DNA of 30,838 nucleotides from Dictyoglomus sp. NZ13-RE01. Its GTDB lineage: Bacteria; Dictyoglomota; Dictyoglomia; Dictyoglomales; Dictyoglomaceae. The stretch spans positions 1 through 30,838 of the forward strand of contig NIRF01000017.1 of assembly GCA_002878375.1 (NCBI GenBank). The letters are read 5' to 3'. The notes under the pieces were generated by a model that had not been told where the DNA came from, made no database searches, and saw only the letters and a program-made list of their open reading frames with translations. Within the stretch, counting starts at the first letter, position 1; each line of letters starts with the position of its first letter. Below, in pieces: positions 6,930-30,705 of the stretch. The position numbers and the translations under genes were made by a program.

Positions 6930-7055
6930 ATGGAGAAAGATAAAAAGATAGAAAGAATTGAGGCTGCACTCCTTCTTCTTGGTATAATTAAGAAATTAAG
7001 GCTCCCTTTCTTTAGAAAACTTAATCCTTTCCAAGAAGGAGGGTGCAGCCTATGA
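6930..7055 (+). CDS. 41-residue leader ORF of IS-A
   Basis: The ATG at 6930 follows GAGGAGA. The product is basic with a Leu-rich middle and no known domain. Its stop TGA overlaps the transposase start as ATGA (7052-7055). The ORF runs through the long hairpin at 6962-7050, so a ribosome translating it would melt the hairpin and free the transposase ribosome site. I infer a translational-coupling leader rather than a protein with its own role. It could also be a vestigial first ORF of a two-ORF element. Confidence 0.45.
   Translation: MEKDKKIERIEAALLLLGIIKKLRLPFFRKLNPFQEGGCSL
6962..7050 (+). promoter_or_regulatory. Long hairpin that hides the IS-A transposase ribosome site
   Basis: The arm 6962-6982 pairs with 7031-7050: 20 base pairs with one bulged T (6970) and one G-U pair. 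An inner pairing ATTAAG (6987-6992) with CTTAAT (7020-7025) extends it. The 3' arm contains AAGGAGGG (7036-7043), the ribosome site of the transposase start at 7052. In the folded RNA the site would be covered. Confidence 0.75.
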
Positions 7056-8248
7056 TCTTATCTTACCATGAACTTAGAAAAATTGCACCTGAGAAAGCAA
7101 GAGAAATTGTGAGAAAAGTATATATCGAAAATAATTGTAATGTCTCTAAAACTGCTAAAATACTTAATACCTCAAGAAAAACTGTTAGAAGAGCAATTAA
7201 TGGTCCCCTCTCTGATATATCAAGAAGACCTAAATCCTCCCCTAAGAAAACTCCTCCTCATGTGGAAGAACTTGTCCTTAATACTGCTAAAGAAACTGGC
7301 TTCTCCTATAGAAGACTTATGGCTTTCATACAAAGGAAATATTCCATCCCTATCAAAGAAAACACCATCAAGGCTATCCTTAAGAGAAATAACTTCAAAA
7401 AGGAAAAGAGAAAAAGGAAAAAGTCAGGAAGACACCTCTATGATTATGAAAAACTTTCACCTTTTGAAGAACTTCAACTTGATACTAAATATCTTTTAGA
7501 TAAAAGTTCTCTCCCTCATCATGTTTATGAGCACATGAGAAAATATTGTTTACCAAAATATGAGTGGAACATAATTGATGCAAAGACAAGAATAAGGTTT
7601 ACTGCATATTCTTATGAGCGTAACTCTACTTTTGGTTTTTCCTTTATCCTTTTTGTTGTTCTATGGTTGAGAGCTCATAATGTTAGGCATAAAATAAATA
7701 TCAGATTGGATAATGGAGAGGAATTTTGTTCGGGGAGTGAGAGAAAGTTGAGAGAATGGAATGAGCTATTGAGTTTTCTGAATGTGGAGTTAAAGCCAAT
7801 TCCTCCTGGAGCAAAACACTTAATGGGGATAATAGAGAATTCTCATAGGCAGGATGATGAATATTTCTTAGGAATACATGCAGAGAGATGCAGAAATGAG
7901 GCAGAATTTTTAATGAAAGCACAGAGATGGCAAGACACATGGAACATAGCAAAACCAAGTTTTGGGATAGGAATGGAAGGAAAAACACCCTATGAAAAGT
8001 TAAGATCAACGATGTTTTTGGTTCATCCTCATGTTTTAGAATTTCCAGTGATACTTTTAGAGGACCTTCTATCCCTTTATGGTTTGTTTACTAAGAATTT
8101 ATCTATATTTCTAAAGGGTGGTAACTATGTCCATACCAAGTGCCCTTCTTGCCCCCGCCTCTTTATCTTAAGTCATATTTTATCGGGGATAAGGTCCTGT
8201 ATTTCCATTCTCGTCAAGCTTTATTACATATACATCAGCATCTCCTAA
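7052..8248 (+). CDS. IS-A transposase (HTH plus DDE integrase core)
   Basis: It catalyses transposition of IS-A. Residues about 1-60 form a helix-turn-helix (SKTAKILNTSRKTVRRAI), then a second winged-helix region with a basic linker (KKEKRKRKK). The rve-type catalytic core follows. The likely triad is Asp in LQLDTKY, Asp in IRLDNGEEF and Glu in MGIIENSHRQDDEYF. All three are present, so the enzyme may be active. The start ATG at 7052 is placed by AAGGAGG (7036-7042); the GTG at 7043 is too close to it. The frame has no stop inside the element: it reads through the right terminal repeat (8144) and takes its last about 34 residues from flanking DNA. The natural end of the protein is therefore uncertain. 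Confidence 0.85.
   Translation: MILSYHELRKIAPEKAREIVRKVYIENNCNVSKTAKILNTSRKTVRRAINGPLSDISRRPKSSPKKTPPHVEELVLNTAKETGFSYRRLMAFIQRKYSIPIKENTIKAILKRNNFKKEKRKRKKSGRHLYDYEKLSPFEELQLDTKYLLDKSSLPHHVYEHMRKYCLPKYEWNIIDAKTRIRFTAYSYERNSTFGFSFILFVVLWLRAHNVRHKINIRLDNGEEFCSGSERKLREWNELLSFLNVELKPIPPGAKHLMGIIENSHRQDDEYFLGIHAERCRNEAEFLMKAQRWQDTWNIAKPSFGIGMEGKTPYEKLRSTMFLVHPHVLEFPVILLEDLLSLYGLFTKNLSIFLKGGNYVHTKCPSCPRLFILSHILSGIRSCISILVKLYYIYISIS
8145..8159. repeat. 15-bp target-site duplication, right copy
   Basis: Exact second copy of the sequence at 6848-6862, directly after the right end of IS-A. Confidence 0.85.
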
Positions 8249-8349
8249 ATTTAAGGAAAACATATATCAAGCTACCACATAACCACCATCTTTTGTTTGT
8301 TGAATAGAGTTAGCCACATCACTAAATTCTCCGCCATGGGTACTTTGCT
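8180..8349 (-). pseudogene. 3' remnant of a repeat (beta-propeller-like) surface protein gene
   Basis: Read on the minus strand, the frame gives GGEFSDVANSIQQTKDGGYV, then VA, an in-frame TGA, then YMFSLNLGDADVYVIKLDEN and a stop at 8180-8182. The phrases SIQQTKDGGYVVA-Y and DADVYVIKLDENGN are typical of repeat proteins in which such units are used many times, usually secreted or on the surface. The TGA stands where the repeat normally has Gly (GGA to TGA). An upstream TAG near 8350 and the lack of further repeats show that the rest of the gene is lost. The MITE at 8413 lies close to the break. The family reading is from memory of the repeat pattern. Confidence 0.6.
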
Positions 8350-8412
8350 AAATATTTAGATAATCCTCATTCTGAAACTTTGAAGTGTCCCAAGTATATT
8401 CAAATTGTTAAC

Positions 8413-8551
8413 CGCACTTGGTATAGACATGATTGTCACCTGAAGGAATATAGACAAGTTTTTAGTAAACAAACCATAAAGAGAAAGAAGGCTTTTTATA
8501 TGATTACTACTATTGTTACTGTACTGGTACCTATGTCCATACCTATTTGCC
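8413..8551 (-). mobile_element. MITE derived from IS-A, copy 1 (about 139 bp)
   Basis: The left part (8413-8495) matches the last about 75 bases of IS-A read backwards, including AGTAAACAAACCATAAAG. The right part (8503-8551) matches the first about 45 bases of IS-A read backwards, ending with the terminal repeat (CCATACCTATTTGCC at 8537-8551). The whole middle of the element is missing. It has no coding capacity of its own; a 60-codon open frame across it is accidental. No target duplication is visible. Confidence 0.85.
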
Positions 8552-8570
8552 CCGATAGATGAAGTTTTTT

Positions 8571-8597
8571 TTGAAGAAGTTGTAGAAAGAATATAAT
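8571..8597 (+). promoter_or_regulatory. Promoter candidate for the helicase gene
   Basis: TTGAAG (8571-8576) lies 15 bases before TATAAT (8592-8597), the first of overlapping TATAAT-like boxes in an ATATA run. The spacing is short. It sits 20 bases after the MITE. Confidence 0.4.
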
Positions 8598-8637
8598 ATA
8601 ATATAATAGAAAACTTTCTAAGGATATTAATAAAAAT

Positions 8638-10182
8638 ATGATTGATATTGAATTTAATGAGCAGTTTAAAAAAGCTTTAGATTTAATGGAAAATACAAAT
8701 AAAAATGTCTTTATAACAGGAAAGGCAGGAACAGGAAAGTCTACCCTTTTAAATTACTTTCGGTCTATTACAAAGAAAAATATTGTAGTTTTGGCTCCTA
8801 CAGGGGTTTCTGCCCTAAATGTTAATGGAGAGACCATTCACTCTTTTTTTGGATTTAAGCCCAATGTAACTTTGCAGAGTATAAGAAAGCTTAAAGATAA
8901 AGAGGCAAAAATTTACAAAGAGATAGATACTATTGTTATTGATGAGATCTCTATGGTGAGGGCAGATCTTTTGGATTGTGTAGATTACTTTTTGAGATTA
9001 AATGGAAAAAGTAAGAGTAAGCCCTTTGGTGGAATCCAAATGATCTTTATTGGAGATCTATATCAGCTTCCTCCTGTGGTTACATCAAAGGAAAAAGAAC
9101 TTTTTACAAAAAGATATAAAAGTCAATATTTTTTTGATTCTGATGTATTTAAAGATCTCCCTGTAGAATTCATTGAATTGGAGAAGGTTTATAGGCAAAG
9201 AGATGAGAAATTTATAAATCTTCTTAACGAAATTAGAAACAACACCATAATTGAGGAAAGCCTAAAATTATTGAATAGCAGAGTAAGAGAAAATTTTGAA
9301 GATTCTGATTATACTGTTTATCTTACTCCTTTAAATGAAACTGCAAATAAAATAAACATGGAAAAGCTAAATTCCTTAAAGGGGAAATTATATGAGTGGA
9401 ATGCATATATAGAAGGAGAGTTTGATGAGAATTCCTACCCTACTGATGCAATTCTTTATTTGAAAAAGGGAGCCCAAGTAATGATGCTAAATAATGATAG
9501 TAAAGGAAGATGGGTGAATGGAAGTATTGGGAAAGTTGTGGATATAAAAAGGTCAAAAAATTATGAATTTGATATAATAAAGGTCCAATTTCCCGATAAT
9601 AGGGTTGAAGAGGTATATCCCTTTACTTGGGAAATATTTCACTATAGATACAATGATGATATAAAGATGATTGAGACAGAGGTTGTGGGATCCTTTACCC
9701 AATATCCTTTAAGGCTTGCCTGGGCAGTTACCATTCATAAAAGTCAAGGAAAAACCTTTGATAAAGTAGTTATTGATCTTGAGAGGGGAGTTTTTGCTCC
9801 AGGTCAACTATATGTTGCCCTTAGTAGGTGCACCTCTTTTGAAGGAATTATCCTTAAAAAACCTGTAAAGAAAAGCTATATTCTCTTGGACAAAAGAATT
9901 GTAAATTTTCTAACAAATTTTCAGTATAAACTTTCGGAAAGAGATATTCCCTTAGAAGAAAAGATAAAGATAATTGAGAAGGCAATAAAAGAGAATAAGC
10001 TTTTATCCATTACATATTTAAAGCCTAATGATGAAAAATCAAGAAGAATTATTAAGCCATATGAAATAGGAGAATTTGAATATAATAAGAAGAAATTTTT
10101 AGGTGTTTCTGCCTATTGCCATGAGAGGAAGGAAGATAGAGTTTTTAGAATAGATAGGATATTGGAAATAGATATTGTATAA
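8638..10182 (+). CDS. PIF1-like DNA helicase with C-terminal WYL domain
   Basis: A 514-residue superfamily 1B helicase, expected to unwind DNA 5' to 3' and to help at stalled forks or G-quadruplexes (family knowledge). Walker A is GKAGTGKST (residues 28-36), Walker B is VIDEISM near residue 100, and the motif III region FIGDLYQLPPV follows. The late motifs FTQYPLRLAWAVTIHKSQGK and YVALSRC are intact. Residues about 440-514 form a WYL domain (SITYLKPN..RRIIKPYEI..AYCHERKEDRVFRIDRI), a ligand- or nucleic-acid-sensing module. PIF1-WYL fusions are known from thermophiles such as Thermotoga. The ribosome site is weak. The gene stands alone. Confidence 0.92.
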   Translation: MIDIEFNEQFKKALDLMENTNKNVFITGKAGTGKSTLLNYFRSITKKNIVVLAPTGVSALNVNGETIHSFFGFKPNVTLQSIRKLKDKEAKIYKEIDTIVIDEISMVRADLLDCVDYFLRLNGKSKSKPFGGIQMIFIGDLYQLPPVVTSKEKELFTKRYKSQYFFDSDVFKDLPVEFIELEKVYRQRDEKFINLLNEIRNNTIIEESLKLLNSRVRENFEDSDYTVYLTPLNETANKINMEKLNSLKGKLYEWNAYIEGEFDENSYPTDAILYLKKGAQVMMLNNDSKGRWVNGSIGKVVDIKRSKNYEFDIIKVQFPDNRVEEVYPFTWEIFHYRYNDDIKMIETEVVGSFTQYPLRLAWAVTIHKSQGKTFDKVVIDLERGVFAPGQLYVALSRCTSFEGIILKKPVKKSYILLDKRIVNFLTNFQYKLSERDIPLEEKIKIIEKAIKENKLLSITYLKPNDEKSRRIIKPYEIGEFEYNKKKFLGVSAYCHERKEDRVFRIDRILEIDIV

Positions 10183-10196
10183 TTCTCTCTACCATT

Positions 10197-10251
10197 GGAA
10201 TACGGAAGGGAGATGGTAGAGGTCCGCAAAATAACATAGTATCCACATTAG
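10197..10251. mobile_element. Solo end remnant of IS-B
   Basis: ACGGAAGGGAGATGGTA (10202-10218) is an exact 17-base match to the inverse of the IS-B right end (16204-16220), and the match extends to 22 bases with one mismatch. Just after it, 10225-10250 resembles the IS-B left end (15163-15187). No transposase sequence remains. It lies about 35 bases upstream of the two-component operator. Confidence 0.6.
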
Positions 10252-10286
10252 GCGAATAATCTTTTTTCTGGATTTTCAAATAAAAC

Positions 10287-10319
10287 TTCATTTTTTCTTC
10301 ATTTTTGATATAGTATAAT
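10287..10319 (+). promoter_or_regulatory. Operator repeat and leaderless promoter of the response-regulator gene
   Basis: Two TTCAT repeats (10287-10291 and 10298-10302) lie 11 bases apart and overlap the -35 position. TATAAT (10314-10319) is 6 bases before the ATG at 10326. With a normal 6-7 base distance from -10 to start, the mRNA would begin at the ATG. No ribosome site is present, which fits. The same repeat is found before the acidic protein gene at 11974. Confidence 0.6.
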
Positions 10320-10325
10320 AATAAC

Positions 10326-11000
10326 ATGCGTATTCTGATTGTGGAAGATGAAAAGAAATTGGCATTAGCAATTAAAAAGGGTTTAGAAAGAGAAGGGTTT
10401 GCAGTAGACTGTGCTTTTGATGGGGAAGAAGCCCAATATTTTATAGAGACAGGTTCCGAAGACTATGATTTAGTAATCCTTGATATAATGCTTCCCAAAA
10501 AAGATGGAATTGCTATCTGTAAGGAAGTTAGAAAGAAAGGCATTACTACCCCTATCTTAATGCTTACAGCCAAAGATAAGATTGAGGATAAGGTCTTAGG
10601 ATTAGACAGTGGTGCAGATGACTATCTTGTTAAACCCTTCGCTTTCGATGAATTGCTTGCCAGAATAAGGGCTCTTTTACGTAGACCCAAACAGTTAGTC
10701 CCAGAAATATTGAAGGTAGGCGACTTAACCCTTGATACATCATCAAGAAGAGTGTTCAAAGGAGATAAAGAAATCTTTCTTACAAGTAAAGAATTTGCTA
10801 TTTTGGAGTATCTTATGAGGAATGTGAATAAAATTGTAAGTAGAGAACAGATATTAGCACACGTATGGGATTATGATTCTGAATCTTTTAGTAATGTAGT
10901 AGACGTTCACATTAAAAATTTAAGGAAGAAAATAGATACAGAGAATGGGAATAAAATTCTCCAGACAATTAGAGGAATGGGTTACAGGCTTAAAGGCTAA
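10326..11000 (+). CDS. OmpR-family response regulator
   Basis: A 224-residue DNA-binding response regulator. The receiver domain (residues 1-118) has the acidic pair E7/D8, phosphoryl acceptor D53 in VILDIMLPKKDG, and the Lys of YLVKPF near residue 103. The C-terminal winged helix (about 128-224) has the usual TSKEFAILEYLM, VSREQILAHVWD and VDVHIKNLRKKI. It overlaps the kinase frame that follows, so they form an operon. The direct TTCAT repeats at its promoter and at the acidic protein gene are a likely binding site for this protein, which would make the system autoregulated. It resembles the many metal or envelope-stress regulators of this family, but the signal is unknown. Confidence 0.92.
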   Translation: MRILIVEDEKKLALAIKKGLEREGFAVDCAFDGEEAQYFIETGSEDYDLVILDIMLPKKDGIAICKEVRKKGITTPILMLTAKDKIEDKVLGLDSGADDYLVKPFAFDELLARIRALLRRPKQLVPEILKVGDLTLDTSSRRVFKGDKEIFLTSKEFAILEYLMRNVNKIVSREQILAHVWDYDSESFSNVVDVHIKNLRKKIDTENGNKILQTIRGMGYRLKG

Positions 11001-11963
11001 TATTTTTGAACGTGCCAGGCTTAAGCTTACTCTTTTTTATTTGGTAATAACAATATTAATTCTTTTTTCTTTTAGTATTGCCTTATACTATAATTATTCA
11101 AGAACAATAGGAGAAGACATAGAAGGTAACTTCACTGATGAGGAACAGCACTTCATTATAGAAAAAATTTAACTCGCCTTAAAATAACTCTTATAACTAT
11201 AAATGGTTCAGCAATCTTGGTAATTGGGATAATAAGCTTCATACTCTCCGGAATTACATTGAGACCTATTAAGGAAACTTTAGAAAGAGAAATGCGTTTT
11301 ACCTCAGATGCTGCTCACGAACTTCGTACACCCTTAGCTATTATGAAAACAGAATTGGAAGTGGCATTGAGGGAGCCAGAACTTAGTAAGGATGAAATTA
11401 GTACCTTAATTAGAAGTAACTTAGAAGAAGTAGAAAGAATGTCGAAAATGGTAGAAGAACTGCTTACTCTCTCTCATATGGATTCTAAGAAAAATAAGAT
11501 TAATCTTTCAAGGGTTCTGTTCTCACAATTAGTAGAAAGAAGTGTTGAAAGAATGATGCCTTATGCTAAAAAGAAAAATATTAACCTAAAAACTTATATA
11601 TCCCCAAATACGGTAATATTAGGAGATGAAGAAAAACTTCAACAGCTTGTCTTTAATCTTTTAAAGAACGCTATTGATTACAATAAAGAAAATGGAGAAG
11701 TCAAGATTGAGGTAAATCAATCATCTAAAACTGTTTCCCTTATAGTCTCTGATACAGGAATTGGCATTCCCCCTGAGGATCTGCCACATGTCTTTGAGAG
11801 ATTTTATCGAGTTGATAAATCTAGGTCTCATAAAATTGGTGGAAGTGGATTAGGGCTCTCTATAGTTAAAGCTATTGTTGATGCTCATCATGGAGAGATA
11901 AAAATAAAAAGTACCCTTAATAAGGGGACTATAGTAGAGGTTCAATTCCCTAAATCAAATTAA
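10945..11963 (+). pseudogene. Sensor histidine kinase gene split by a one-base frameshift in an A run
   Basis: The partner kinase of the response regulator. The first frame (10945-11172) gives TM helix 1 (LTLFYLVITILILFSF) and a short outer loop of about 30 residues. It stops just after six A at 11162-11167. Adding one A joins it smoothly, through KNLTRLKITLITINGS, to TM helix 2 and the rest of the kinase. That part has the H box (SDAAHELRTPLA), N box (LVFNLLKNAIDYN), G1 (SDTGIGIPPED), F box (FERFYR) and G2 (GSGLGLSIVKA). Apart from the frameshift, all functional motifs are kept. It may be a true recent mutation, a slippage-read gene, or an under-called base. The kinase start at 10945 lies inside the regulator gene and has no clear ribosome site. 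Confidence 0.85.
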
Positions 11964-11973
11964 TCTTTTTAAC

Positions 11974-12005
11974 TTCATATTAAATTCATCTTTGCCCTCT
12001 ATAAT
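11974..12005 (+). promoter_or_regulatory. Promoter of the acidic protein gene with the same TTCAT operator
   Basis: TTCAT at 11974-11978 and 11985-11989, again 11 bases apart, followed by TATAAT at 12000-12005. The second repeat starts 15 bases before the -10 box here and 16 bases at the regulator gene. The shared layout suggests control by the response regulator. Confidence 0.6.
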
Positions 12006-12039
12006 ATGCCTGTAAATTGATAGAGAAAGGAGGTGAAAG

Positions 12040-12372
12040 ATGATGAAGCGTATAGTTTTATTTGTAGCAATAGGGTTGCTCGCAGTAGGTTTATTAGGAG
12101 GAATCTCCTATGGTAAAGACATTTTTGTGAGTAAGAATTCAGTAGCTTCAACTTCTACTGCAACTCAATTTGTAGATGACAAGACTTCACAAGGCCAGCA
12201 AAATAGCATAGAAGAAGAAAAGAATGACGAAGCTAAAGAAGCAATAGAAAAAGAGGAAGCAAATGAACCACAAGAATTATCTAAGGAAGAAGAAAGCGAG
12301 AACCTTCCCAATGGTGGACACTCTGACCCAGAGGGCACCGATGTAGATCATCAATTTGAAGGAGTAGAGTAG
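12040..12372 (+). CDS. Small secreted acidic protein, probable two-component target
   Basis: A 110-residue protein. Residues 1-24 are a clear signal peptide (hydrophobic core LFVAIGLLAVGLLGG, likely cleavage near SYG-KD). Residues about 45-90 are very rich in Glu and low in complexity, so probably disordered. The last part, GGHSDPEGTDVDHQFEGVE, resembles a tail I recall from small exported proteins of other low-GC bacteria, but its role is unknown to me. The ribosome site AAAGGAGGTGA (12026-12036) is strong; translation can begin at 12040 or 12043. The TTCAT repeat in its promoter ties it to the preceding regulator. A role in binding cations or in envelope stress is only a guess. Confidence 0.8.
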   Translation: MMKRIVLFVAIGLLAVGLLGGISYGKDIFVSKNSVASTSTATQFVDDKTSQGQQNSIEEEKNDEAKEAIEKEEANEPQELSKEEESENLPNGGHSDPEGTDVDHQFEGVE

Positions 12373-12383
12373 TTCTAAAACTT

Positions 12384-12425
12384 TATAGAGGGTCTCCGTA
12401 AATGGAGACCCTCTATAACCCTTTT
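12384..12425 (+). terminator. Terminator after the acidic protein gene
   Basis: A perfect 14-bp stem (12384-12397 with 12404-12417), six-base loop, followed by ACCCTTTT. It starts 12 bases after the stop codon. Confidence 0.8.
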
Positions 12426-12426
12426 A

Positions 12427-12551
12427 AACATAGTTACCCCTTTTAAAATATATAAGTTTTTTGGTAAACAAGCCATAAAGAGAAAGAAGGACTTTTTTTA
12501 CATCATTACCACTATTTACTATAATAGCAACTATGTCCCTACCTATTTACC
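12427..12551 (-). mobile_element. MITE derived from IS-A, copy 2 (about 125 bp)
   Basis: Same build as the copy at 8413: IS-A right-end sequence (ACATAGTTACC, then GGTAAACAAGCCATAAAG) joined to IS-A left-end sequence (CTATGTCCCTACCTATTTAC). The join AAAGAGAAAGAAGG is the same in both copies, so they descend from one deleted ancestor. The outer 12 bases of its left end are lost. Confidence 0.8.
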
Positions 12552-12570
12552 AAGTAAAAATAAGAATCTC

Positions 12571-12598
12571 TTGCAATTTTTTTCAAAATAGATATAAT
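12571..12598 (+). promoter_or_regulatory. Promoter of the P-type ATPase gene
   Basis: TTGCAA (12571-12576), 16-base spacer, TATAAT (12593-12598). It lies 20 bases after the MITE and leaves a leader of about 75-107 bases, depending on the start used. Confidence 0.6.
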
Positions 12599-12679
12599 AT
12601 TTTCATAAAAAGTTTATTTTTGTTTTAGTTTGCGTTTTTTATAGCATTCTTAACACAGGATGTTATAAAGAATTTTGGT

Positions 12680-15124: not shown

Positions 15125-15139
15125 CTTCAAGTTTGATTG

Positions 15140-16088
15140 TTAGTTATATTTATGGAAGGGCTGCGGAATAACATGGTATCCCCTTAGAGAAGATTCTAAT
15201 CTTTTTGAAAATAATTCGTCAAGAATCACAGGAGGAAAGTTAATTATAGATGGAGGAATTTCAGGATTTCTTTCCCTAATAATCTCCCAAGGAGTCTTGT
15301 TTTCTTTGTAGCTATTCTTCCTGATAGCATTAAACCAAAGAATATATGTATGTGCTTTTGAAAGTAACTCGGAAGGAGAATTAAATCTCTCCAGCTCATA
15401 AAACTCAACTTCTATTAGATTATGGACTGTTTCTACATCAGATTGGTATGTATGAGCAGAAGGTGGAATATTGATGTTGAATAAGAAGTTCTGCAAAAAG
15501 AGAAGAATAAGCAATGGAGAGTTCATAAGAGTAGGCAATAAATTGTAATCCACTCACTACATCTCGTGCTGTATATTGATACTTAGGGAGATAATTTTTG
15601 AACATCTGACAGAAATACCCTAGGATATCATCCAAATATTTTGTATCAACCTCTATCTGAGAGAAAAGAGGCCAATTCTTCTTTATCTCTCTTAAGTTTC
15701 TCTTTGTTTTGTGTTTTCTTCTTCTCTTCTTTAATAGACCATTCTCTTTCCAAATTTTTCTAAGAGCCTTTTCAGAGAGAGAAAGAGCAAAATCTCTTTT
15801 TAACCTTTTTGCTCCAAAAGAAGGGAATTCTTTTTTAAGTTTAATAGCTAAATCTTTTTGTTCTTGAGTGATATACCTTTTAGGATTTTTAGGAGCCTTA
15901 CTTTGGTCAATAAGACCAGAGATACCTTTTTCTTTCCATCTATTCAGCCATTTTCTAACTGTTTTAGGGGTAGTATTAAAAGCCTTAGCAGTAGGTTTGA
16001 TACCTTTTTCTAAGGCATACTGAACCATTTGATATCTTAGAGCTTTTTTATCAAAAGATATTCTCATTATGGTATAATAATTCCACAT
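15140..16088 (-). pseudogene. IS-B transposase, internal deletion and frame change
   Basis: A relative of the IS-A transposase (shared phrases DTKYL, LPKY, FIAYSYE). The first frame (16088-15438) gives the helix-turn-helix (PTAKAFNTTPKTVRKWLNRW), basic linker and first catalytic Asp (IEVDTKY). After LFAELLIQH the frame is wrong; the correct sequence resumes in another frame with INIPPSAHTYQSDVETVHNL, which holds the catalytic Glu region, and runs to 15140. The stretch with the second Asp (the DNG motif) is missing altogether, so the lesion is a deletion plus frameshift and the enzyme must be dead. Start 16088 lies in the hairpin and has AGGTG upstream; 16067 is an alternative. Confidence 0.85.
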
Positions 16089-16221
16089 GGCACCTGGACA
16101 CCTCTATCTTTATGGTATTTTGAATAAGAATACCATAAAAACATCCAGGTGCCATGTTCTTTTTTCACTCCTACTCTAATAACTTTAATATCCATTAGGG
16201 GGATACCATCTCCCTTCCGTG
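15163..16221 (-). mobile_element. Decayed insertion sequence IS-B
   Basis: The ends are imperfect inverted repeats: the left includes ATGGTATCCCCTTAG (15173-15187) and the right, read inward, ATGGTATCCCCCTAA. It contains a transposase pseudogene on the minus strand and a two-tier hairpin at 16085-16157 before the transposase start. The right end stops just before the -35 box of the downstream sugar operon. No target duplication is clear. Confidence 0.75.
16085..16157 (-). promoter_or_regulatory. Two-tier hairpin over the IS-B transposase start
   Basis: A perfect 14-bp stem (16085-16098 with 16144-16157) encloses a second perfect 11-bp stem (16109-16119 with 16129-16139). On the minus strand the outer stem covers the ATG at 16088 and the AGGTG ribosome site before it. 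The same kind of structure occurs in IS-A and IS-C. Confidence 0.7.
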
Positions 16222-16228
16222 TTCCAGA

Positions 16229-16257
16229 TTGTTTTTATTTTTCATTTTTGATATAAT
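16229..16257 (+). promoter_or_regulatory. Promoter of the second sugar ABC operon
   Basis: TTGTTT (16229-16234), 17-base spacer, TATAAT (16252-16257), about 35 bases before the ATG at 16293. It begins 8 bases after the IS-B end. The stretch TTCATTTTTGATATA (16241-16255) is identical to 15 bases in the response-regulator promoter (10298-10312). Confidence 0.6.
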
Positions 16258-16292
16258 TTAATCGAAATTCAATTTAAATAGGAGGCGAAAGC

Positions 16293-19907: not shown

Positions 19908-20862
19908 TAAGCTTTCTCAACTTTATACAAGGAATCTTGAAATTGTTATCTTAACATTGATTTTGTCATTTCTTTTGGTTTCTATGACCCTTCTTACTGG
20001 AGGAAAATTTTTAAAACTTAATAGTTTGGAAGCAATGGCATTTCAAATGCCCCTTTTGGGCTTACTTACTTTAGCTCAATTAATTCCCATGTTAACAGGA
20101 GGTATTGATCTTTCGATAATATCTACAGCAAACTTATCAGGAATAATTACTGCTCTTATTCTAACTAATATAAAAGCTTGGTATAACGTCCCCTTAGCAA
20201 TTCTTTTAGGACTTTTTTCTGCTCTTCTTGTTGGAATCTTTAATGGTTTTATTATATCTTTTATTGAAGTTCCACCAATAATTGGTACTCTTGGAAGTAT
20301 GATCCTTATAAAGGGAATTTCTCTTGCAATAACTAAAGGCTATGTTATATCAGGATTTCCAGATAGTTTTCTTTTTATTGGCAATGGTTATATTTTAGGG
20401 GTTCCTGTTTCTTTCATTATTTTTATTCTTTTTTCTTTGCTTATGGCTCTTATATTATATAAAACTTCTTTTGGAATTTGTATCTATATGTTAGGATCAA
20501 ACCCATTGGCAACTTTATTTTCTGGAATTAATAATAAGTCACTTCTATTTAAAAGTTATTTAATTTCTTCCTTTCTTTCTGGAGTTGCTTCTTTAGTTAT
20601 GATTTCTCGCTTTAATGCAGCCCAAGCAGATTATGGAGGGTCTTTTCTTCTCCTTACAGTATTAATTTGTGTTTTGGGGGGGGTAAGCCCTTCAGGTGGT
20701 TTTGGAAGGGTTTTAGGAGTGTTTATTGCGGTAACTATACTTCAAATAGTTGGAACAGGATTTAATTTGTTAGGTCTCTCCTCTCATTTAAGTAATGCAT
20801 TGTGGGGTATAATATTGATATTAGTCATTATTTTAAACCGTTTTTACTCCAAAACTCGATAA
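19897..20862 (+). CDS. Sugar ABC transporter permease 2, RbsC/LsrD type
   Basis: A 321-residue permease, the partner of the preceding one. Family phrases: LIPMLTGGIDLSI, MLGSNPLATLFSGIN and CVLGGVSPSGGFGRVLG. The ATG at 19897 is preferred over the TTG at 19894; GAGGATGG lies upstream. It overlaps the first permease by 11 bases and ends the operon. Having two different permeases rather than a homodimer fits Lsr/Rha-type systems. Confidence 0.9.
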   Translation: MLNSKLSQLYTRNLEIVILTLILSFLLVSMTLLTGGKFLKLNSLEAMAFQMPLLGLLTLAQLIPMLTGGIDLSIISTANLSGIITALILTNIKAWYNVPLAILLGLFSALLVGIFNGFIISFIEVPPIIGTLGSMILIKGISLAITKGYVISGFPDSFLFIGNGYILGVPVSFIIFILFSLLMALILYKTSFGICIYMLGSNPLATLFSGINNKSLLFKSYLISSFLSGVASLVMISRFNAAQADYGGSFLLLTVLICVLGGVSPSGGFGRVLGVFIAVTILQIVGTGFNLLGLSSHLSNALWGIILILVIILNRFYSKTR

Positions 20863-20867
20863 AATTT

Positions 20868-20965
20868 ATGACTACACTTCTCACCTCCTAAGGTTGGATT
20901 GTTAGATATCTAACCTAAGTCTAACCTTAGGAGGTTTTTCTTTTCAAAAAATGATTACAGATCAG
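20868..20965 (-). mobile_element. Left-end remnant of IS-C that can serve as an operon terminator
   Basis: Read on the minus strand it matches the IS-C left end at 30621 over its full length: terminal repeat (CTGATCTGTAATCA), GAAAAGAAAAACCTCC, and the ribosome-site region with GTCAT of the transposase start. The start codon itself is altered and no coding sequence follows. The arms 20883-20895 and 20923-20935 (ACCTCCTAAGGTT / AACCTTAGGAGGT) form a perfect 13-bp stem. The loop contains the perfect palindrome GTTAGATATCTAAC (20901-20914). On the plus strand the stem runs into TTTTTCTTTT, a good Rho-independent terminator 20 bases after the permease stop. Confidence 0.85.
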
Positions 20966-23409: not shown

Positions 23410-23426
23410 GAGAATAATTCAAAATT

Positions 23427-24185: not shown

Positions 24186-24976
24186 TGCTTAGGAGAGTGT
24201 TGACATTTTTGAGAAATTCTTGGTTGGCATATAAAGGAGTTTCATTATGGCTAAATCCATAGGCTTATATGATTGAAAAAGTTATCAATCCTATATTTAG
24301 ATATCTTTTTTATTCTTTTTTGATATTGTACGGATATAAAGAAAGGGCTAATATTGCAGTTTTTATTTTAGGAAATGCCATTCTCCTTTCTTCAATAAGT
24401 GCTTTAAAGGGAATAGGTATAATTTATTTTTCTGAAAGACAGCAGGGTACATTGATGTATTTTATCGTAAGTCCTCGCTCGCGCATGAGAATTATTCTCC
24501 AAAAGATATTTTTCCATATTCTTGACGCTTTTCTTACAGTATTAATTGTATTAACCATTATGTTTATAGGTTTCAAATTATATTATCCTCTTCATCAGTT
24601 TATATATATTTTTTTATTGGTGATAATAGGAGTAGTATCAGTGAGCCTTTTTGGAAGTCTTATAGCAAGCTTAGGGCTCTTAACCAGAGATATAAATATG
24701 CTTCTTAATGGAGTAGAGGTATTAATGATTTTACTAAGTGGTGTTAATATTCCTATATCAAAATTTCCAGTGTTTTTAAAATATTTATCTTGCGTCTTCC
24801 CTCTCTCACATCTTATTGAAGGACTAAATTATATAGTACAAGATAGGATATCTATGGCAATACCTTACATAACTTCTGAGATTATATTACTTTTCATATA
24901 TTTTCTTTTAGGTAATTTTATAATCAAATTTTTAGAGCATAAAGCAAGACACATTGGAAATATTGATTTTTACTAA
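24185..24976 (+). pseudogene. ABC-2 type transporter permease 2 gene with an in-frame TAG
   Basis: The second permease of the exporter. From the ATG at 24185 the frame gives MLRRVLTFLRNSWLAYKGVS, then LWLNP, a TAG at 24260-24262, then AYMIEKVINPIFRYLFYSFL in the same frame. In relatives a residue stands where the TAG is, so this is a nonsense mutation at codon 26. The ATG at 24269 could restart translation and would lose only the N-terminal cytoplasmic segment. The remainder has about six helices and the family motifs (FSERQQGTLMYFIVSPRSR, LSGVNIPISKFPVFLKYLS). Confidence 0.85.
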
Positions 24977-24983
24977 TGGTGTA

Positions 24984-25010
24984 ACTTCTTTTTAAGAGAA
25001 GTGCTATAAT
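24984..25010 (+). promoter_or_regulatory. Leaderless promoter and palindrome of the first mntA gene
   Basis: The near-palindrome 24984-25002 (ACTTCT...AGAAGT, 8 of 9 pairs) lies just before an extended -10 box TGCTATAAT (25002-25010). The ATG at 25017 follows 6 bases after TATAAT, with no ribosome site. The palindrome is a possible autoregulation site or a weak terminator for the preceding operon. Confidence 0.5.
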
Positions 25011-25016
25011 ATTTTT

Positions 25017-25387
25017 ATGACTAAGGAATTCTACCTTCTTAATGAGATAGAAAAAGAAAAAATTATCGAGGAGATAAGAAGAATTCTTCAAAGAGAAGAG
25101 AATATAATTTTTGCATATGTGTATGGTTCTTTTTTAGATAATACTTCTTTTAGAGATATTGATATAGGTATTTATATTAAAGAATTTGATGAAAAGAGTA
25201 TCAATGAATTAGAGCTTAAATTAACAGTAGAAATTTCCAAAAAAATTAATTTGCCCTTTGAAATTATTGATTTAAGGGTATTAAATCATGTAAAAAATTC
25301 CTTACAGATCTAATAGAAGAAACATCACAAGAAGCCATTGCTAATGAATACATATCTTATTTATCCTTAAAGGAGCTTCTTTCCTAA
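25017..25387 (+). pseudogene. Decayed MntA-type nucleotidyltransferase antitoxin, copy 1
   Basis: Residues 1-95 keep the minimal nucleotidyltransferase core: GSFLDNTSFRDIDIGIYI contains GS and the DxD catalytic pair. After six A at 25292-25297 the frame is lost and stops at 25313. With one more A it continues as KKFLTDLIEETSQEAIANEY and ends at 25387, where the stop TAA overlaps the ATG of the HepT remnant. It is a paralogue of the intact gene at 26192-26587, on the opposite strand. Confidence 0.8.
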
Positions 25388-25570
25388 TGCAGATCGATAT
25401 TGAAAAGATAAAGCAGAGAATTTCAGATATAAATGAATCCTTAGAGGAGATTCAAAGGTTAACTTCCTTTGAAGTAGAGGAATTTTGGTCTGATATAGGA
25501 TTATGCAAAACACGACATAAAAGATTTTGTTGATTTTATAGAGAACGTTAAGAGGCTATTAATTCCCTAA
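25387..25570 (+). pseudogene. HepT (HEPN) toxin remnant, copy 1, core deleted
   Basis: The start MQIDIEKIKQRISDINESLE is a normal HepT N-terminus, and YAKHDIKDFVDFIENVKRLL (another frame, ending at 25570) is a normal C-terminus. The two halves join near 25500 with about half of the protein missing, including the RX4HXY RNase motif. The toxin must be inactive. Confidence 0.7.
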
Positions 25571-25779
25571 ACTTTTTCCTTATTTTTTCAGGGTAATAAA
25601 ATCTTTCTTTTATAAAGAGACATGAAAGTGAATAGAACTGCTTTGAGGTTTCATATATGGAATTTTCCTTGGCATATTTTTAAATGAGATAAATTTTTTT
25701 CTAATTATATTACATTTTTTCAGAATAACTCGATATTTTGCTTACCTTTAGAAATGCTTTTTTAATTCCATCATGCTTA
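25571..25779. other. Gap between two convergent toxin-antitoxin copies
   Basis: About 210 AT-rich bases with no gene, clear terminator or repeat that I can support. Confidence 0.5.
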
Positions 25780-26205
25780 TTATGTTTCAAGAATTTCTAT
25801 TATTCTGTTTAAAAGCTTTTTGAGATCTCTGATATTATTTTTTAATATCATGTAAATCTGTTTATTATTAATTTCCCAGTATATATGTACAAGTCTATTC
25901 CTAAATTTCACCATATTCTTCAAATTATTCACAAATTCATCTTCTAAAATTCCCTGTTCTGCAAGAACCACAAAAGTATCTGCGTAATCCTGAGGAGGTC
26001 TAAATCCATTCTGAGATATTAAATGATTGCAAATATCTATAGCAGACTCAATAGCAATTATGAAATTGTATTTAGCACTATCAATCTTATCCTGATTTTT
26101 TAAAAATTCTTCCTTATCAATTTCACTTATAGAGTCTAAACGACTTATAGCTTTTCGCATCTCAAAGATTAATTTAGAGATTTTATCTTTATTATAGCGG
26201 AGCAT
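25780..26205 (-). CDS. hepT: HepT-type HEPN toxin, intact copy
   Basis: A 141-residue all-helical HEPN protein. In MntA-HepT systems HepT is an RNase toxin. The RX4HXY motif is complete: R102, H107 and Y109 in RNRLVHIYW. In studied relatives the Tyr of this motif is the residue that the MntA antitoxin modifies with AMP groups. The gene overlaps the mntA-like gene by 14 bases and is translated second, the standard order. Length and motif are normal, so the toxin is probably active. The symbol is by family. Confidence 0.88.
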   Translation of the reverse strand: MLRYNKDKISKLIFEMRKAISRLDSISEIDKEEFLKNQDKIDSAKYNFIIAIESAIDICNHLISQNGFRPPQDYADTFVVLAEQGILEDEFVNNLKNMVKFRNRLVHIYWEINNKQIYMILKNNIRDLKKLLNRIIEILET

Positions 26206-26587
26206 TTTTAATCTCCCTTAAATACTCATCTATCAAATGCTTATAATCAAAATATTTTCTAAAGGTTAAGCTCTCAAAATCAGAACGTAGTAGGCTGTCT
26301 TTGTCCACTATTATAATTTTATTTATCAAAACATTATATACAAATCCTAAGGGTGCCTCGTTGATAATTCTTACATCAAAGGGTTTTTTAATTTTATCCT
26401 CCAAAATCTTCTCAAGCTCAAATTCTATCTCTAAGACCTTTTCCCTATCAAAATCAGATACATAAATTGCCACATCTATATCATTGTATTTCTCAGAGTT
26501 AACAAAGGAGCCAAATATATAGGCAAATATGATATTTTCTCTCTTTTCTAATTCCTTTTTTACGATTTCAATAATCTTATCCTTCAT
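26192..26587 (-). CDS. mntA: MntA-type nucleotidyltransferase antitoxin, intact copy
   Basis: A 131-residue minimal nucleotidyltransferase that neutralises HepT by adding AMP to its active-site Tyr (known for MntA of other bacteria). The catalytic motif is GSFVNSEKYNDIDVAIYV: G26, S27 and the metal-binding pair D36/D38. The GS-to-DxD spacing is 8 residues. The gene precedes hepT and overlaps it. The ATG at 26587 stands 7 bases after TATAAT, with no ribosome site, which suggests a leaderless mRNA as for the decayed copy at 25017. Stable maintenance or phage defence are known roles of such pairs; nothing here decides between them. Confidence 0.88.
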   Translation of the reverse strand: MKDKIIEIVKKELEKRENIIFAYIFGSFVNSEKYNDIDVAIYVSDFDREKVLEIEFELEKILEDKIKKPFDVRIINEAPLGFVYNVLINKIIIVDKDSLLRSDFESLTFRKYFDYKHLIDEYLREIKNAPL

Positions 26588-26594
26588 ATAAGAG

Positions 26595-26602
26595 ATTATA
26601 GC
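26595..26602 (-). promoter_or_regulatory. Leaderless extended -10 promoter of the intact mntA-hepT pair
   Basis: On the minus strand TGCTATAAT ends at 26595 and the ATG follows after 7 bases. The same TGCTATAAT is found at the decayed copy. I could not identify a good -35 box. Confidence 0.5.
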
Positions 26603-26718
26603 ATAAGTAGTGCCTTTATATAATCAAGATTTCGTCAATGTTCCAAAATAGGGGGAATTTGAAAGTCATATGATATGATGTAAATTAAAGACAAAATATT
26701 TAATTGGAGGGTGGAAAA

Positions 26719-28464
26719 ATGGATTTCAGTAATATTAAAAAGGTCTTTAAGTTTTATTCTTTACTTTCTTCATGGTACCTTTTTGGTACTTTTTTAGGAG
26801 GATTTCTTGTTAATTTTGAGGTCATAGTTGGATTCTTATTTCCAATTCTTACAAAAAGTATTATTGACAGTCTTACTCTTAAGACAATAAACTGGCAAGC
26901 TATTTTTTACTTAGGCTTTTTATATCTTCTCAGTTTAATCTTAATGCTTATTGGAGAGCAAATTTATATAAAGAATAAGTATTTGTCCGCCTTTGATCTT
27001 ATGAATAAGATTTTCTCTAAATCTTTCTTTTTCCCTATAAAGAAATTAAAACAACAGGGTTCCGCCTATTATTCAACATTAATTCTTAATCAAGTAAATG
27101 AAGCCTTTGGAGTACTTGATTATAGTTATATAAGAAATATCATAGTAATTCTTAGGATGTTTTTTATAATGGGAATAGTATTTATTTGGGATCGTATCTT
27201 CTTTTTACTTTTCCTGATTAATATTTTAATTGTAGCCTTTTACTCAGAGGTTATTAATAAAAGAACTCAATCTTACTATTCTAAAGGATATGAAATTTTA
27301 AGAAGGGCAGGAAGTTACATTGTAGAGACCTTTGAAAATATACATGAGATTTTCGCAGGAGAAGGCATAGAGAAGAGAAAGGAAGGATACAAGAAATTAA
27401 CTGATGAGTTTATAAAAGTAGGATTAAGGGCAGAATTTATAAGGGCAAGATTTGACAAGCTATTAGTCGAGCTTCCCGAGTATTTATCTCGTTTATTCAT
27501 TTTTATCTACGGTGGAATCTCTGTTATATCAGGAAAATTAACTGTAGGTACTGTACTTGCCATATTAACATACTATTCTTACATTACAGAACCTCTCTAC
27601 CTCTTCAGATCTTTAGTACAAGTCACTGTAAAACTTGTCTCAAACTTTGATACCATATTTAATTTCTTTGAAGAAGCAAAAGAATATGAAAAAACGTACG
27701 AAGGTACAAGAATTTCTATAAAGGAAAACTCGCCTATTTATTCCTTGAAAGATGTTAACTTTTCCTATGATGAAAAGCAAATATTAAAGAATATAAATTT
27801 TGAGGTTATTAAGGGAGATAAGACTGCTATTCTTGGTCTTTCCGGAGAGGGGAAAAGCACTCTCTTAAATATTCTTTTAGGAATAGAGAAGGAGTATGAA
27901 GGAAAAGTTGAGTTTTTAGGAAATGATATAAGAAATATATCTCCTGTAGAGCTTTTTAAATATGTAGGATACTATTCCCAACAAGTAGGAATTTTTAATG
28001 ATACATTAGAAAACAATATAGTATTAGGTAGAGAGTATAATGAGGAGAGATTGGAGAAAGTAATAAAAGAGCTTGGATTGGAACATTTGAGGGGAAGAGT
28101 TCTTGGAGAAGGAGGGAGCTTTATTTCTGGAGGAGAAAAACAAAGGATTCAATTAGCAAGACTTTTATACGCAGACAAAGATATTTTCATAATCGACGAG
28201 CCCTTAGTAAACTTGGATGTAATAAATGAGAATTTTCTCCTTGAGAAGCTCAAAGATTTTATAAAGGATAAATCGGGAATACTTATCACCCACAAACCAA
28301 ATATTTTGAGATTAGCAAATAAAATTGTAGTGCTTATGGATGGAAATATAGTTGGAGTTGGACCATTAAATGAACTTGCAAACAATAATCCTTTATGTAA
28401 AAGAATAATAGAAACCTATTTGGAGAGTGCTAATGAATTAAGGGAAGAAATCAATAGAAAATGA
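26719..28464 (+). CDS. ABC exporter half-transporter (TM domain fused to ATPase)
   Basis: A 581-residue type IV ABC exporter of the MsbA/LmrA/peptide-exporter build. Residues about 1-320 carry six helices; the ATPase domain follows from about 335 (SLKDVNFSYDEKQILKNINF). Walker A is LSGEGKST, Q loop YYSQQVGIFNDTLENNI, signature ISGGEKQRIQLARL, Walker B IFIIDEPLVNLD, switch His in LITHKPN. All key residues are present. The ATG at 26719 is preferred over the TTG at 26704 because GGAGGGTGG is then placed as ribosome site. It is a single gene, so it would act as a homodimer or with a partner elsewhere. The substrate is unknown. It has no visible functional link to the adjacent toxin-antitoxin pair. 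Confidence 0.88.
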   Translation: MDFSNIKKVFKFYSLLSSWYLFGTFLGGFLVNFEVIVGFLFPILTKSIIDSLTLKTINWQAIFYLGFLYLLSLILMLIGEQIYIKNKYLSAFDLMNKIFSKSFFFPIKKLKQQGSAYYSTLILNQVNEAFGVLDYSYIRNIIVILRMFFIMGIVFIWDRIFFLLFLINILIVAFYSEVINKRTQSYYSKGYEILRRAGSYIVETFENIHEIFAGEGIEKRKEGYKKLTDEFIKVGLRAEFIRARFDKLLVELPEYLSRLFIFIYGGISVISGKLTVGTVLAILTYYSYITEPLYLFRSLVQVTVKLVSNFDTIFNFFEEAKEYEKTYEGTRISIKENSPIYSLKDVNFSYDEKQILKNINFEVIKGDKTAILGLSGEGKSTLLNILLGIEKEYEGKVEFLGNDIRNISPVELFKYVGYYSQQVGIFNDTLENNIVLGREYNEERLEKVIKELGLEHLRGRVLGEGGSFISGGEKQRIQLARLLYADKDIFIIDEPLVNLDVINENFLLEKLKDFIKDKSGILITHKPNILRLANKIVVLMDGNIVGVGPLNELANNNPLCKRIIETYLESANELREEINRK

Positions 28465-28488
28465 AAAATTTTCCTAAATCTACCTAAC

Positions 28489-28516
28489 TTGACAATTTTA
28501 AATATTGTTTTAAAAT
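28489..28516 (+). promoter_or_regulatory. Promoter of the beta-helix gene
   Basis: TTGACA (28489-28494), 16-base spacer, TAAAAT (28511-28516). Confidence 0.6.
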
Positions 28517-28535
28517 TAAAATAAAGGAAATTAAG

Positions 28536-28560
28536 TCCAAGGGAAAGCTATTCCCCTGGA
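28536..28560 (+). promoter_or_regulatory. Hairpin in the 5' leader of the beta-helix gene
   Basis: 28536-28545 pairs with 28551-28560 (nine pairs, one mismatch, loop of five), 3 bases before the ATG at 28564. It lies downstream of the promoter, so it is in the leader. It may be the terminator of the ABC exporter gene, a stabiliser, or a control element. Confidence 0.45.
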
Positions 28561-28563
28561 TGG

Positions 28564-29878
28564 ATGAAATGGGGTGTTAAAATGTTTCCCTTCCTTCGCA
28601 TATCCAAATTCACCCTTATTTTTATCCTAATTCTCCTTCTCTTTTGCTCAAATACTATGGAAGGCGCAGGAAATGTTTACTACGTATCTCCAAAGGGAAG
28701 CAATTCAAATCCTGGAACCCTTGAAAAACCTTGGGCAACTCCTGGCTATGTCTCAAAACAGCTTAAGCCTGGTGATACTCTCATCATTCTTGATGGAAAA
28801 TATGTTCTCTCAGAATACTATGAAGACATGATTACTCCTCCTTCTGGAACTGTTGATAAATGGATAACAATTAAGGGAGAAGCAGGTAAAAGAGTATAGA
28901 GATTTTAGGCTCTCAGGCAAGCCACATTATTCTTAAGGACCTATATATCCACCATATTGATGAGATGGGTATAGATGCGCAAGATGTAGACGATCTGCAG
29001 ATATTAAATTGTAGAATAGAGTACTGTGGTTTTGGAGCCATAGGAGGTCCTGGAGGGGGATATGGTGGTTTAAGGAATGTAGTAATAAGAGGATGTAGTC
29101 TATCCTATAGTGGGCACTACTATCAAGGTGGTGATGGTTCTAATAGACCCTATGACCGTCCTGATGGATTTGGGATTGAGCCCTCTGATGGACCAATTTT
29201 AATTGAGGATACAATTGTTGAGCATAACTATGGAGATGGGATAGATTCAAAGGCGAAAAATACAACTATTCGTCGTTGTATAGTAGCAAACAATTCTTGT
29301 GATGGAGTAAAGCTATGGGGAGAAAATAGCAAAGTAGAGAACACTTTAATTTATGGGAGAGGAGATGACAATTCTATAGTAACTCCATGGTCACCAATTG
29401 TAATTGATACAGAGACACCAAATGCCCTATTTGAAATAGTAAATGTTACTGTAGATGATGCTCTTGGAGCTAACTACCTTATGTATGTACAATACGATCA
29501 TGAAGATATACCAGTAAAATTAATTATAAAAAATACAATATTTTGTGGTAGAGGAGAAGATTCTCCTATATTTATAGGTTCTGCAAGTAGTTTTACTTTA
29601 GACCATAATCTTTTCTATCTTCCAAACAGTGCATTTGTACTAACTCATGGGAATAACACTTATGATTCTAATACTATTACTCAGGTTGGCAGTGGAAATA
29701 TTTATGGAGATCCTCTTTTTGTAAGTCCTGCTTGGGGGCAAGATGGAGATTATCACCTAAAAGCGCAAAGTCCTGCCATAGATAGAGGAACTTCTCAAGG
29801 AGCACCCTCCGAAGATCTTGAAAAAATCCTCGACCACAAGGGGCAGGTGTTGATATAGGAGCCTACGAATGTAAATGA
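28564..29878 (+). pseudogene. Secreted right-handed parallel beta-helix protein, two frameshifts
   Basis: A secreted protein of the pectate-lyase-like beta-helix class, probably a polysaccharide lyase or binding protein. A signal peptide (core FTLIFILILLLFC) is followed by YYVSPKGSNSNPGTLEKPWA, a typical start of such proteins, and by repeated coil motifs (DGIDSKAKNTTIRRCIVANN, CDGVKLWGENSKVENTLIYG). The first frame stops at 28897-28899; with one extra base near AAAA (28888-28891) it continues as IEILGSQASHIILKDLYIHH. The second frame runs to 29858, but after six A at 29821-29826 one extra A gives EKNPRPQGAGVDIGAYECK ending at 29878, the canonical end of this fold. Both lesions are one-base losses. 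The start may be 28564 or 28582; GGGGTG favours 28582. The rest is well kept, so the breaks look recent. Confidence 0.85.
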
Positions 29879-29885
29879 TAAAATT

Positions 29886-29918
29886 AGGGGCAAGGTAAAA
29901 TCCTTGCCCCTTTTTATT
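29886..29918. terminator. Terminator between convergent genes
   Basis: A perfect 10-bp stem, AGGGGCAAGG (29886-29895) with CCTTGCCCCT (29902-29911), followed by TTTT on the plus strand. It ends the beta-helix transcript and may also work for the minus-strand gene. Confidence 0.85.
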
Positions 29919-30559
29919 TACCAATTAGTTTCAACACCAAAAATACCGTGGATTGCTATATTAGGAACATCCGCATGACCATTAGCAATTGGTACTCTCG
30001 CCCATGCTGCAGTAAGTTTTGTCTCAACAATAAATGAAATATGGGAAAGTAATTTTATCTTATATCCGATAGAAGCATGACCTGCAATACCAGAGAAATA
30101 GTAGCCTGTAAAACTAATCTCAGCATGAGGAGGGTCTGAAAGTTCTTGTCCACGTACAATAGTCTCTGGATGTGCGACAACGACACCTGCTCCAAGAGAG
30201 TAAAACCACGAGTCTTTTTGAATCAGACGTTCCAAAAGAATAAGATTATAGCCATGAGTTATCCAAAACTGTTGAATATCTGGATGCTCAGATATCAAAT
30301 AAAGTTTATGATGAATTAATTCAATAGACCATAGTCCGAATGTAAAACGAATAGAATAATAGGGGGCTTCATAAAAAGGTCTTGTTTCCCATTGAGCAGA
30401 ATCGATTTTTATTGTTTCATAACCATCCTGATAAATAGTTAGCGGGGTAGGAAAACTCAAGGCACTTCCACCTAATATAGAGAAGGAAAAAGCAAATGCT
30501 GAGGATGAAAAAACAATAATGAAGCATAATACTAATAAATTTAGGAGTAACATCCTCAT
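29918..30559 (-). CDS. Exported protein, possibly a small outer-membrane beta barrel
   Basis: I do not recognise a family with certainty. The 213-residue protein starts with a signal peptide (LLLNLLVLCFIIVFSSSAFA). The rest is rich in aromatic residues and alternates polar and hydrophobic residues in strands such as YYSIRFTFGLWSIELIHHKL, ISFTGYYFSGIAGHASIGYK and HISFIVETKLTAAWARV. It ends in a Trp. These are features of outer-membrane beta barrels, including lipid A deacylase-like ones, but no catalytic motif is clear. The gene is single and convergent with the beta-helix gene. The ATG at 30559 has AAGGGGG about 9 bases upstream; the ATG at 30553 is also possible. Confidence 0.65.
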   Translation of the reverse strand: MRMLLLNLLVLCFIIVFSSSAFAFSFSILGGSALSFPTPLTIYQDGYETIKIDSAQWETRPFYEAPYYSIRFTFGLWSIELIHHKLYLISEHPDIQQFWITHGYNLILLERLIQKDSWFYSLGAGVVVAHPETIVRGQELSDPPHAEISFTGYYFSGIAGHASIGYKIKLLSHISFIVETKLTAAWARVPIANGHADVPNIAIHGIFGVETNW

Positions 30560-30650
30560 AGGAAAATACCCCCTTTTAAATTTTCTTTTCTAAGTATACA
30601 TCATGTAATCCTTTTTATCACTGACCTGTAATCAGTTTTTGAAAAGAAAA

Positions 30651-30705
30651 ACCTCCCAGGGTTAGAATTAGATTAGAAAGAGATAACATCCAAACCCCGG
30701 GAGGT
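30651..30705 (+). promoter_or_regulatory. Hairpin that hides the IS-C transposase ribosome site
   Basis: ACCTCCCAGGGTT (30651-30663) pairs with AACCCCGGGAGGT (30693-30705): 12 of 13 pairs. The 3' arm holds the ribosome site GGGAGGT for the ATG at 30713. In the remnant at 20883-20935 two of the pairs are changed on both sides (T-A to C-G and A-T to G-C), so pairing is conserved while sequence is not. Confidence 0.8.

Follow-up and report, generated by a model that had tools for sequence, protein, structure and literature searches.

Insertion sequences in the contig

The window analyzed here, 30,838 nucleotides of Dictyoglomus sp. NZ13-RE01, is an entire contig (C17) of a 1.93-Mb draft genome in 34 contigs, and it carries insertion sequences that we refer to as IS-A, IS-B and IS-C. 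IS-A (6863..8144, forward strand) is an IS481-like element of 1282 bp, recognizable by its inverted tips (GGCAnnT..GGTATGGACATA), by a flanking 15-bp duplication and by a below-cut-off match of its transposase to NF033577, the NCBIfam model for IS481. The duplication is an exact direct repeat (CTTCTTGCCCCCGCC) with its left copy at 6848..6862 and its right copy at 8145-8159, and the IS-A relatives in genome G266 are likewise flanked by 15-bp duplications. From the left tip an open leader frame, 'orfA' (6864..7055, forward strand), runs into the transposase frame, orfB (7052..8144, forward strand), which contains no stop before the right tip. The insertion site lies at the base of a terminator-like hairpin (6832-6862; GGGGGGAGCAAGTTTCTTCTTGCCCCC) beside a sugar-isomerase-like gene, and the target duplication includes half of that hairpin. 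Directly 3' of IS-A lies a short MITE-like element (8406-8551) consisting of IS-A left and right ends with the interior deleted, and similar remnants are present at 4510-4666, 12445-12551 and elsewhere in the genome.

IS-B (15154..16225, reverse strand, right end approximate) is also IS481-like, with its transposase split into two frames. IS-C is IS4-like and is represented by a left end at 30621..30838 (forward strand), one of about 14 near-identical left ends in the genome, and by the right end of another copy at positions 1-217, such that both contig ends are IS-C; terminal inverted repeats (CTGAYCTGTAATCA) are present at both ends of the element. Its left ends are mostly located at contig ends, and an intact IS-C has therefore not been assembled. 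A degenerate and diverged left end that has lost its start codon (20851-20965, reverse strand) sits at the 3' end of a gene for an ABC transporter permease.

An earlier sequence-only reading of this region described three types of insertion sequence, and the protein comparisons reduce these to what appear to be two families, with IS-A and IS-B IS481-like and IS-C IS4-like. At 29-34% identity (E about 1e-15), the transposase of IS-A is homologous to that of IS-B, and both match NF033577 below its curated cut-off of 224, IS-A with 103 bits (E 1.6e-29) and the broken IS-B gene through its N-terminal part (E 2.9e-22). Residues D144, D220 and E262 of the IS-A transposase are invariant across four relatives, the D, D and E being assigned by position and not by structure. 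A single frame piece of IS-C, of which no intact copy is assembled, matches PF01609 (DDE_Tnp_1) with 27.6 bits against a cut-off of 23, and NF033591, the IS4 family model, with 30 bits against a cut-off of 152. Searched by protein across 60 genomes, IS-C has no relatives outside its own genome at the threshold used; IS-A has one relative among the plasmids searched and none in the viral contigs or phages searched. No known Rfam elements were found in the window, and a literature search returned no paper on Dictyoglomus insertion sequences.

Hairpins at the transposase start sites

The leader of each element contains a strong hairpin. In IS-A the hairpin (6962-7050) pairs a 21-nt 5' arm (6962..6982, forward strand) with a 20-nt 3' arm (7031..7050, forward strand) that holds the Shine-Dalgarno sequence (SD) AAGGAGG of the transposase, with a minimum free energy of -40.4 kcal/mol. 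In IS-C (30651-30705) the arms lie at 30651..30663 and 30693..30705 on the forward strand, the second of them holding the SD GGGAGGT, with the transposase ATG at 30713. The IS-B hairpin (16085..16157, reverse strand) lies within a leader frame, MDIKVIRV...GIIIP*. Compared with dinucleotide shuffles, all three fold with the excess stability that had been anticipated (z -6.6 for IS-A, -8.9 for IS-B and -3.75 for IS-C), and each of the stems remains folded at 75 C.

For comparison across the genome, we calculated how much energy it takes to expose the SD of the 935 genes whose SD is 5 nt or longer. This background consists of contig stretches totalling 1,926,684 bases, nearly the whole genome, scored stretch by stretch without rejoining, so that genes cut at stretch ends are absent from it and start codons are those of a simple caller, not of an annotation. 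The opening energy has a median of 2.8, a 99th percentile of 11.3 and a maximum of 16.6 kcal/mol, and the maximum (rank 1 of 935) is IS-A itself. IS-C, at 14.1 kcal/mol, is beyond the 99.5th percentile and would rank just under the second gene. That second gene is glmS, which lies behind the glmS ribozyme (L162:2323-2486, in contig C14 of this genome), and the measure thus picks out a known regulated leader. The transposase SD is therefore occluded by a hairpin in both IS-A and IS-C, far beyond the genomic norm, in agreement with the sequence-only reading as regards these two elements.

For IS-B the same reading holds only in part. The hairpin is real and includes an ATG at 16088, whose opening energy of 14.5 kcal/mol would also rank just below the second gene; the SD there is poor (AGGTG, 2 nt away). 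The likelier transposase start, as judged from the sequence, is at 16067 (MRISFD...), where it overlaps the stop of the leader frame as TAATG, and the hairpin ends about 16 nt before this position. With a poor SD at 16088 and a likelier start outside the hairpin, IS-B is not counted among the elements with a hidden ribosome site. Covariation in the IS-B hairpin is unsupported, the other copies being without its long outer stem.

Covariation and hairpins in related elements

Compensatory changes among copies, which had been proposed as a check of the hairpins, are present in IS-A and IS-C and are unsupported for IS-B. The IS-C set comprises six sequences, namely the left end at 30621, the hairpin part of the degenerate left end (20883..20965), three others from the genome and one from G002. 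Three of its 12 pairs are changed on both sides, a number reached by 7 of 500 shuffles, and 97% of cells pair; slid registers give 0 or 1 doubly changed pairs. In the degenerate copy the hairpin has been kept with compensatory changes (CCTCCTAAGGTT / AACCTTAGGAGG). The IS-A set contains eight leaders, from the window, from G004 (four), and one each from G001, G266 and the Aminicenantes contig L212. Here 9 of 21 pairs are changed on both sides, compared with 3.9 for shuffled sequences and 1-4 when the register is slid, and none of 500 shuffles reaches this. Both sets are small samples of few independent events, and in IS-A four of the eight leaders come from one genome, so that events are fewer than cells.

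Relatives of IS-A from Aminicenantes, Thermotogaceae and Thermovirga have SD-covering stems of unrelated sequence; L213 (GGCCACCTCCTC / GAGGAGGTGGC) and Thermovirga pTLIE01 (GGCGGGTACCTCTCCTTT / AAAGGAAAAAGGAGGTAACCCGCC) cover the SD with no shared stem sequence. In L211 and L225 there is a strong leader hairpin located off the SD, and the G266 leader occludes its SD weakly. The SD hairpin is thus common in the IS-A branch of IS481 without being universal. The TnpB gene of the same genome (C9:69073-70323) has no such hairpin, with only a weak leader fold. The presence of SD-covering stems in relatives from other phyla indicates that the trait belongs to the elements and not to the genome, and, together with the TnpB leader, it leaves unsupported the proposal that strong selection in this particular genome accounts for the hairpins. 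We note that the same C9 locus (L153) encodes, 9 kb from the TnpB gene, a 736-aa frame with a TnpB/Cas12f-type zinc domain near 78982.

Predicted promoters and probable protection from read-through

In IS10 and IS50, RNA that reads through from outside the element buries the transposase ribosome site, and the native RNA starts inside, an arrangement known as foldback protection. Promoters of the TTGACA/TATAAT (sigma-70-like) kind are enriched upstream of genes in this genome (221, with 76 expected), and both IS-A and IS-C have a candidate promoter in their leaders, at positions that are predictions noticed after the fact. The predicted IS-C promoter (TTGAAA-N18-TAGAAT; 30639..30668, forward strand) matches at 10 of 12 positions, and its spacer is formed by the hairpin's 5' arm. 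This layout is found in all six aligned copies, with an N17 spacer in the G002 copy and a -10 of TAGACT in the degenerate copy. In IS-A a predicted extended -10 (TGGTATAAT; 6980..6988, forward strand) abuts the 5' arm, and its TATAAT is invariant in all eight aligned leaders; it is absent in L211 and L213. A weak promoter-like site on the minus strand (30779-30752; 9 of 12 positions) is a candidate source of an antisense RNA, of the kind that controls IS10, across the start of the IS-C transposase; by eye the site is not kept in the G002 copy.

These positions lend substance to the earlier suggestion that an internal transcript might escape the hairpin, since RNA from the predicted promoters would lack the 5' arm. 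An IS-C transcript starting about 7 nt past the predicted -10 would begin in the loop, and the computed cost of opening its SD at 75 C falls from 6.8 kcal/mol in a read-through RNA to 1.1 kcal/mol in the loop-start RNA (4.7 and 0.6 kcal/mol in the G002 copy). In IS-A, whose predicted extended -10 borders the arm, RNA made from within the element would be only partly freed, with 8.1 kcal/mol for the read-through and 4.9 kcal/mol for the loop-start RNA and a partial local fold that stays. The corresponding values for the G004 leader are 11.6 and 2.9 kcal/mol, and for L212 the two RNAs do not differ.

Foldback protection against read-through transcription is probably the best explanation for the hairpins of IS-A and IS-C, with their rarity in the genome, their occlusion of the SD and the covariation in their stems. 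An RNA that reads in from a neighbouring gene would carry both arms and fold, hiding the ribosome site and leaving the transposase poorly translated, and the element would thereby avoid activation by transcription of its neighbours. That the predicted promoters are used, that transcripts start where the layouts suggest and that translation is affected are matters that we infer from promoter placement and folding.

A conserved leader frame and possible translational coupling

The sequence-only reading overlooked that in both IS-A and IS-B the hairpin falls within what looks like a translated leader frame, a position that allows translational coupling as a second mechanism. In IS-A an uninterrupted reading frame (ANRYGHRYQY...NPFQEGGCSL*) extends from the left tip as far as the transposase gene, where its stop codon TGA and the initiating ATG share bases as ATGA. 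Leader frames with the similarity EAA..ILGIIKKL.....R...PL.GWR.SL are found in G004, G266 (three copies), L211/L234, L212, L213 and L235, and L225 has a more diverged form, so that the frame is conserved in other phyla. It ends at or beside the transposase start, with the ATGA overlap in A, G004, G266, L212, L213 and L235. Differences by codon position mostly show an excess at third positions (6/8/18 for A compared with L212 and 9/7/15 for A with G266), as is not the case for A and G004 (3/5/3). No start codon is conserved among seven leaders, and in G004, L211 and L212 none precedes the conserved core. The stretch from tip to core is open in every leader tested, the shuffle probability of this being 0.019 for A, 0.045 for G266, 0.09 for L211, 0.18 for L212, 0.48 for L213 and 0.05 for L225; multiplied together these give about 2e-6, or less when G004 is included, a figure in which independence is overstated, the tips being homologous.

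For the IS481-type elements, these frames raise the possibility that the transposase depends primarily on ribosomes that translate the leader frame up to the overlapping start, with protection from read-through being secondary. We put this at somewhat short of an even chance. It draws on the open frame and the conserved amino acids in A, G004, G266, L211, L212, L213, L225 and L235, and on the way the frame ends at or beside the transposase start with a third-position excess such as that between A and L212. Against it, IS-C has no leader frame, the frame itself has no conserved start codon and in G004, L211 and L212 lacks any before the core, and the hairpins of L211 and L225 do not cover the SD. 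Coupling would also be compatible with foldback protection, as a second means of relief in IS-A, in which ribosomes on the leader frame ending at the transposase start would open the hairpin.

A coding frame could also give rise to a hairpin as a by-product of its codon content. The arms of IS-A fall within a frame that looks coding, and the leaders were accordingly compared with synonymous-codon nulls. The G266 and L225 leaders do fold no stronger than synonymous-codon shuffles; by contrast, the stability of the whole leader is matched by only 4 of 500 such shuffles for A and 1 of 500 for G004. Occlusion of the SD is exceeded in 9/300 and 0/300 nulls for A, 17/300 and 4/300 for G004, 0/300 for L212, and 4/300 and 2/300 for L213, and thus stands above the nulls in all four; Thermovirga is mixed, and G266, L211 and L225 are not above. 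Codon content is largely refuted as the origin of the hairpin in the A-like copies, and we consider it very unlikely as the explanation for IS-A.

Marginally less probable again is that the stems act in DNA, or as binding sites for transposase or a repressor, and not in RNA. Their location near an element end would suit such a role, but they occur at one end only, their sequences are unrelated among A, L213 and L221, yet pairing with the SD is kept, and the covariation preserves pairing and not sequence. As strong stem-loops upstream of a coding region the leaders might also resemble transcription terminators or attenuators, but this is highly improbable and was rejected, as none of the three leaders contains a terminator-like site: each has a long loop and lacks a run of T.

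A transposase gene that may close in a circle

The ends of the IS-A frames have a further property. The transposase frame exits the right tip without a stop (GGxYVxTxC), as it also does in relatives from other phyla, and in A, G266 and L225, whose ends are known, each tip leaves one base of a codon, as read directly from the sequences. It follows that tips joined through a spacer of 1 (mod 3) bp would form one continuous gene in a circle; a 15-bp spacer, equal to the target duplication, would break the frame. We therefore raise, as a speculation that we think unlikely to be correct, the idea that the transposase gene of IS-A-type elements forms a closed loop and is whole only when the element has been excised as a circle or is present as a head-to-tail dimer. 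In a circle, the frame would leave the right tip, re-enter the left tip as the start-less leader frame and end on its own start codon. Ribosomes completing the loop would then melt the hairpin that covers the ribosome site and reinitiate. If so, efficient transposase synthesis would occur only from the circle, and inserted copies would be silent. A search of six assemblies, a kind of data that rarely keeps circles, found neither a circle nor IS-A tips joined in tandem. One branch of IS481, in several phyla, keeps a conserved leader frame with no obvious start in the inserted element, and whether the circle makes transposase differently is a directly testable question.

Comparison with known elements

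Target duplications in the IS481 family range from 2 to 15 bp (PMC10045372), and IS-A resembles those members with 15-bp duplications in its transposase, its inverted tips and its own duplication, which is inside that range. It differs in the leader frame entering from the tip, the stop-less transposase frame and the SD hairpin, none of which is described for IS481 in the literature searched. A precedent for transposase expression that depends on an excised circle is provided by the IS2 minicircle, in which a functional 1-bp junction spacer is needed for the junction promoter (PMC3299598). IS2 assembles a promoter at the junction, whereas for IS-A it is a reading frame that is suggested to be assembled there.

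Foldback protection in IS10 and IS50 offers the closest likeness for IS-C, which is also IS4-like, whose ribosome site would be buried in read-through RNA and whose native RNA is predicted to start inside the element. IS-C differs in having the spacer of its predicted promoter as the anti-SD arm and in coming from a thermophile, and it is known here from sequence and folding. The layout is a compact one, in which the promoter spacer would double as anti-SD arm and the element's own RNA would lack that arm. Taken with IS-A, it adds evidence from compensatory changes for foldback protection in two unrelated families of insertion sequences in a thermophile.

Leaders that sequester the ribosome binding site are already known in insertion sequences (the translational control of IS10 is cited in PMC4265352), and IS-A and IS-C are new members of this group. 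Two features set them apart: in IS-C the spacer of the predicted promoter would also serve as the arm that pairs with the SD, and in IS-A the leader frame has no conserved start codon. Neither is described in the literature searched, which consisted largely of openly accessible papers. In ISPpu9, two small RNAs act with a 244-nt transposase 5'-UTR (PMC8450116), and structure in the mRNA leader limits translation of the transposase, a role that is predicted for the leaders of IS-A and IS-C as well. Instead of a 244-nt leader and two small RNAs, however, these elements would rely on a compact hairpin.
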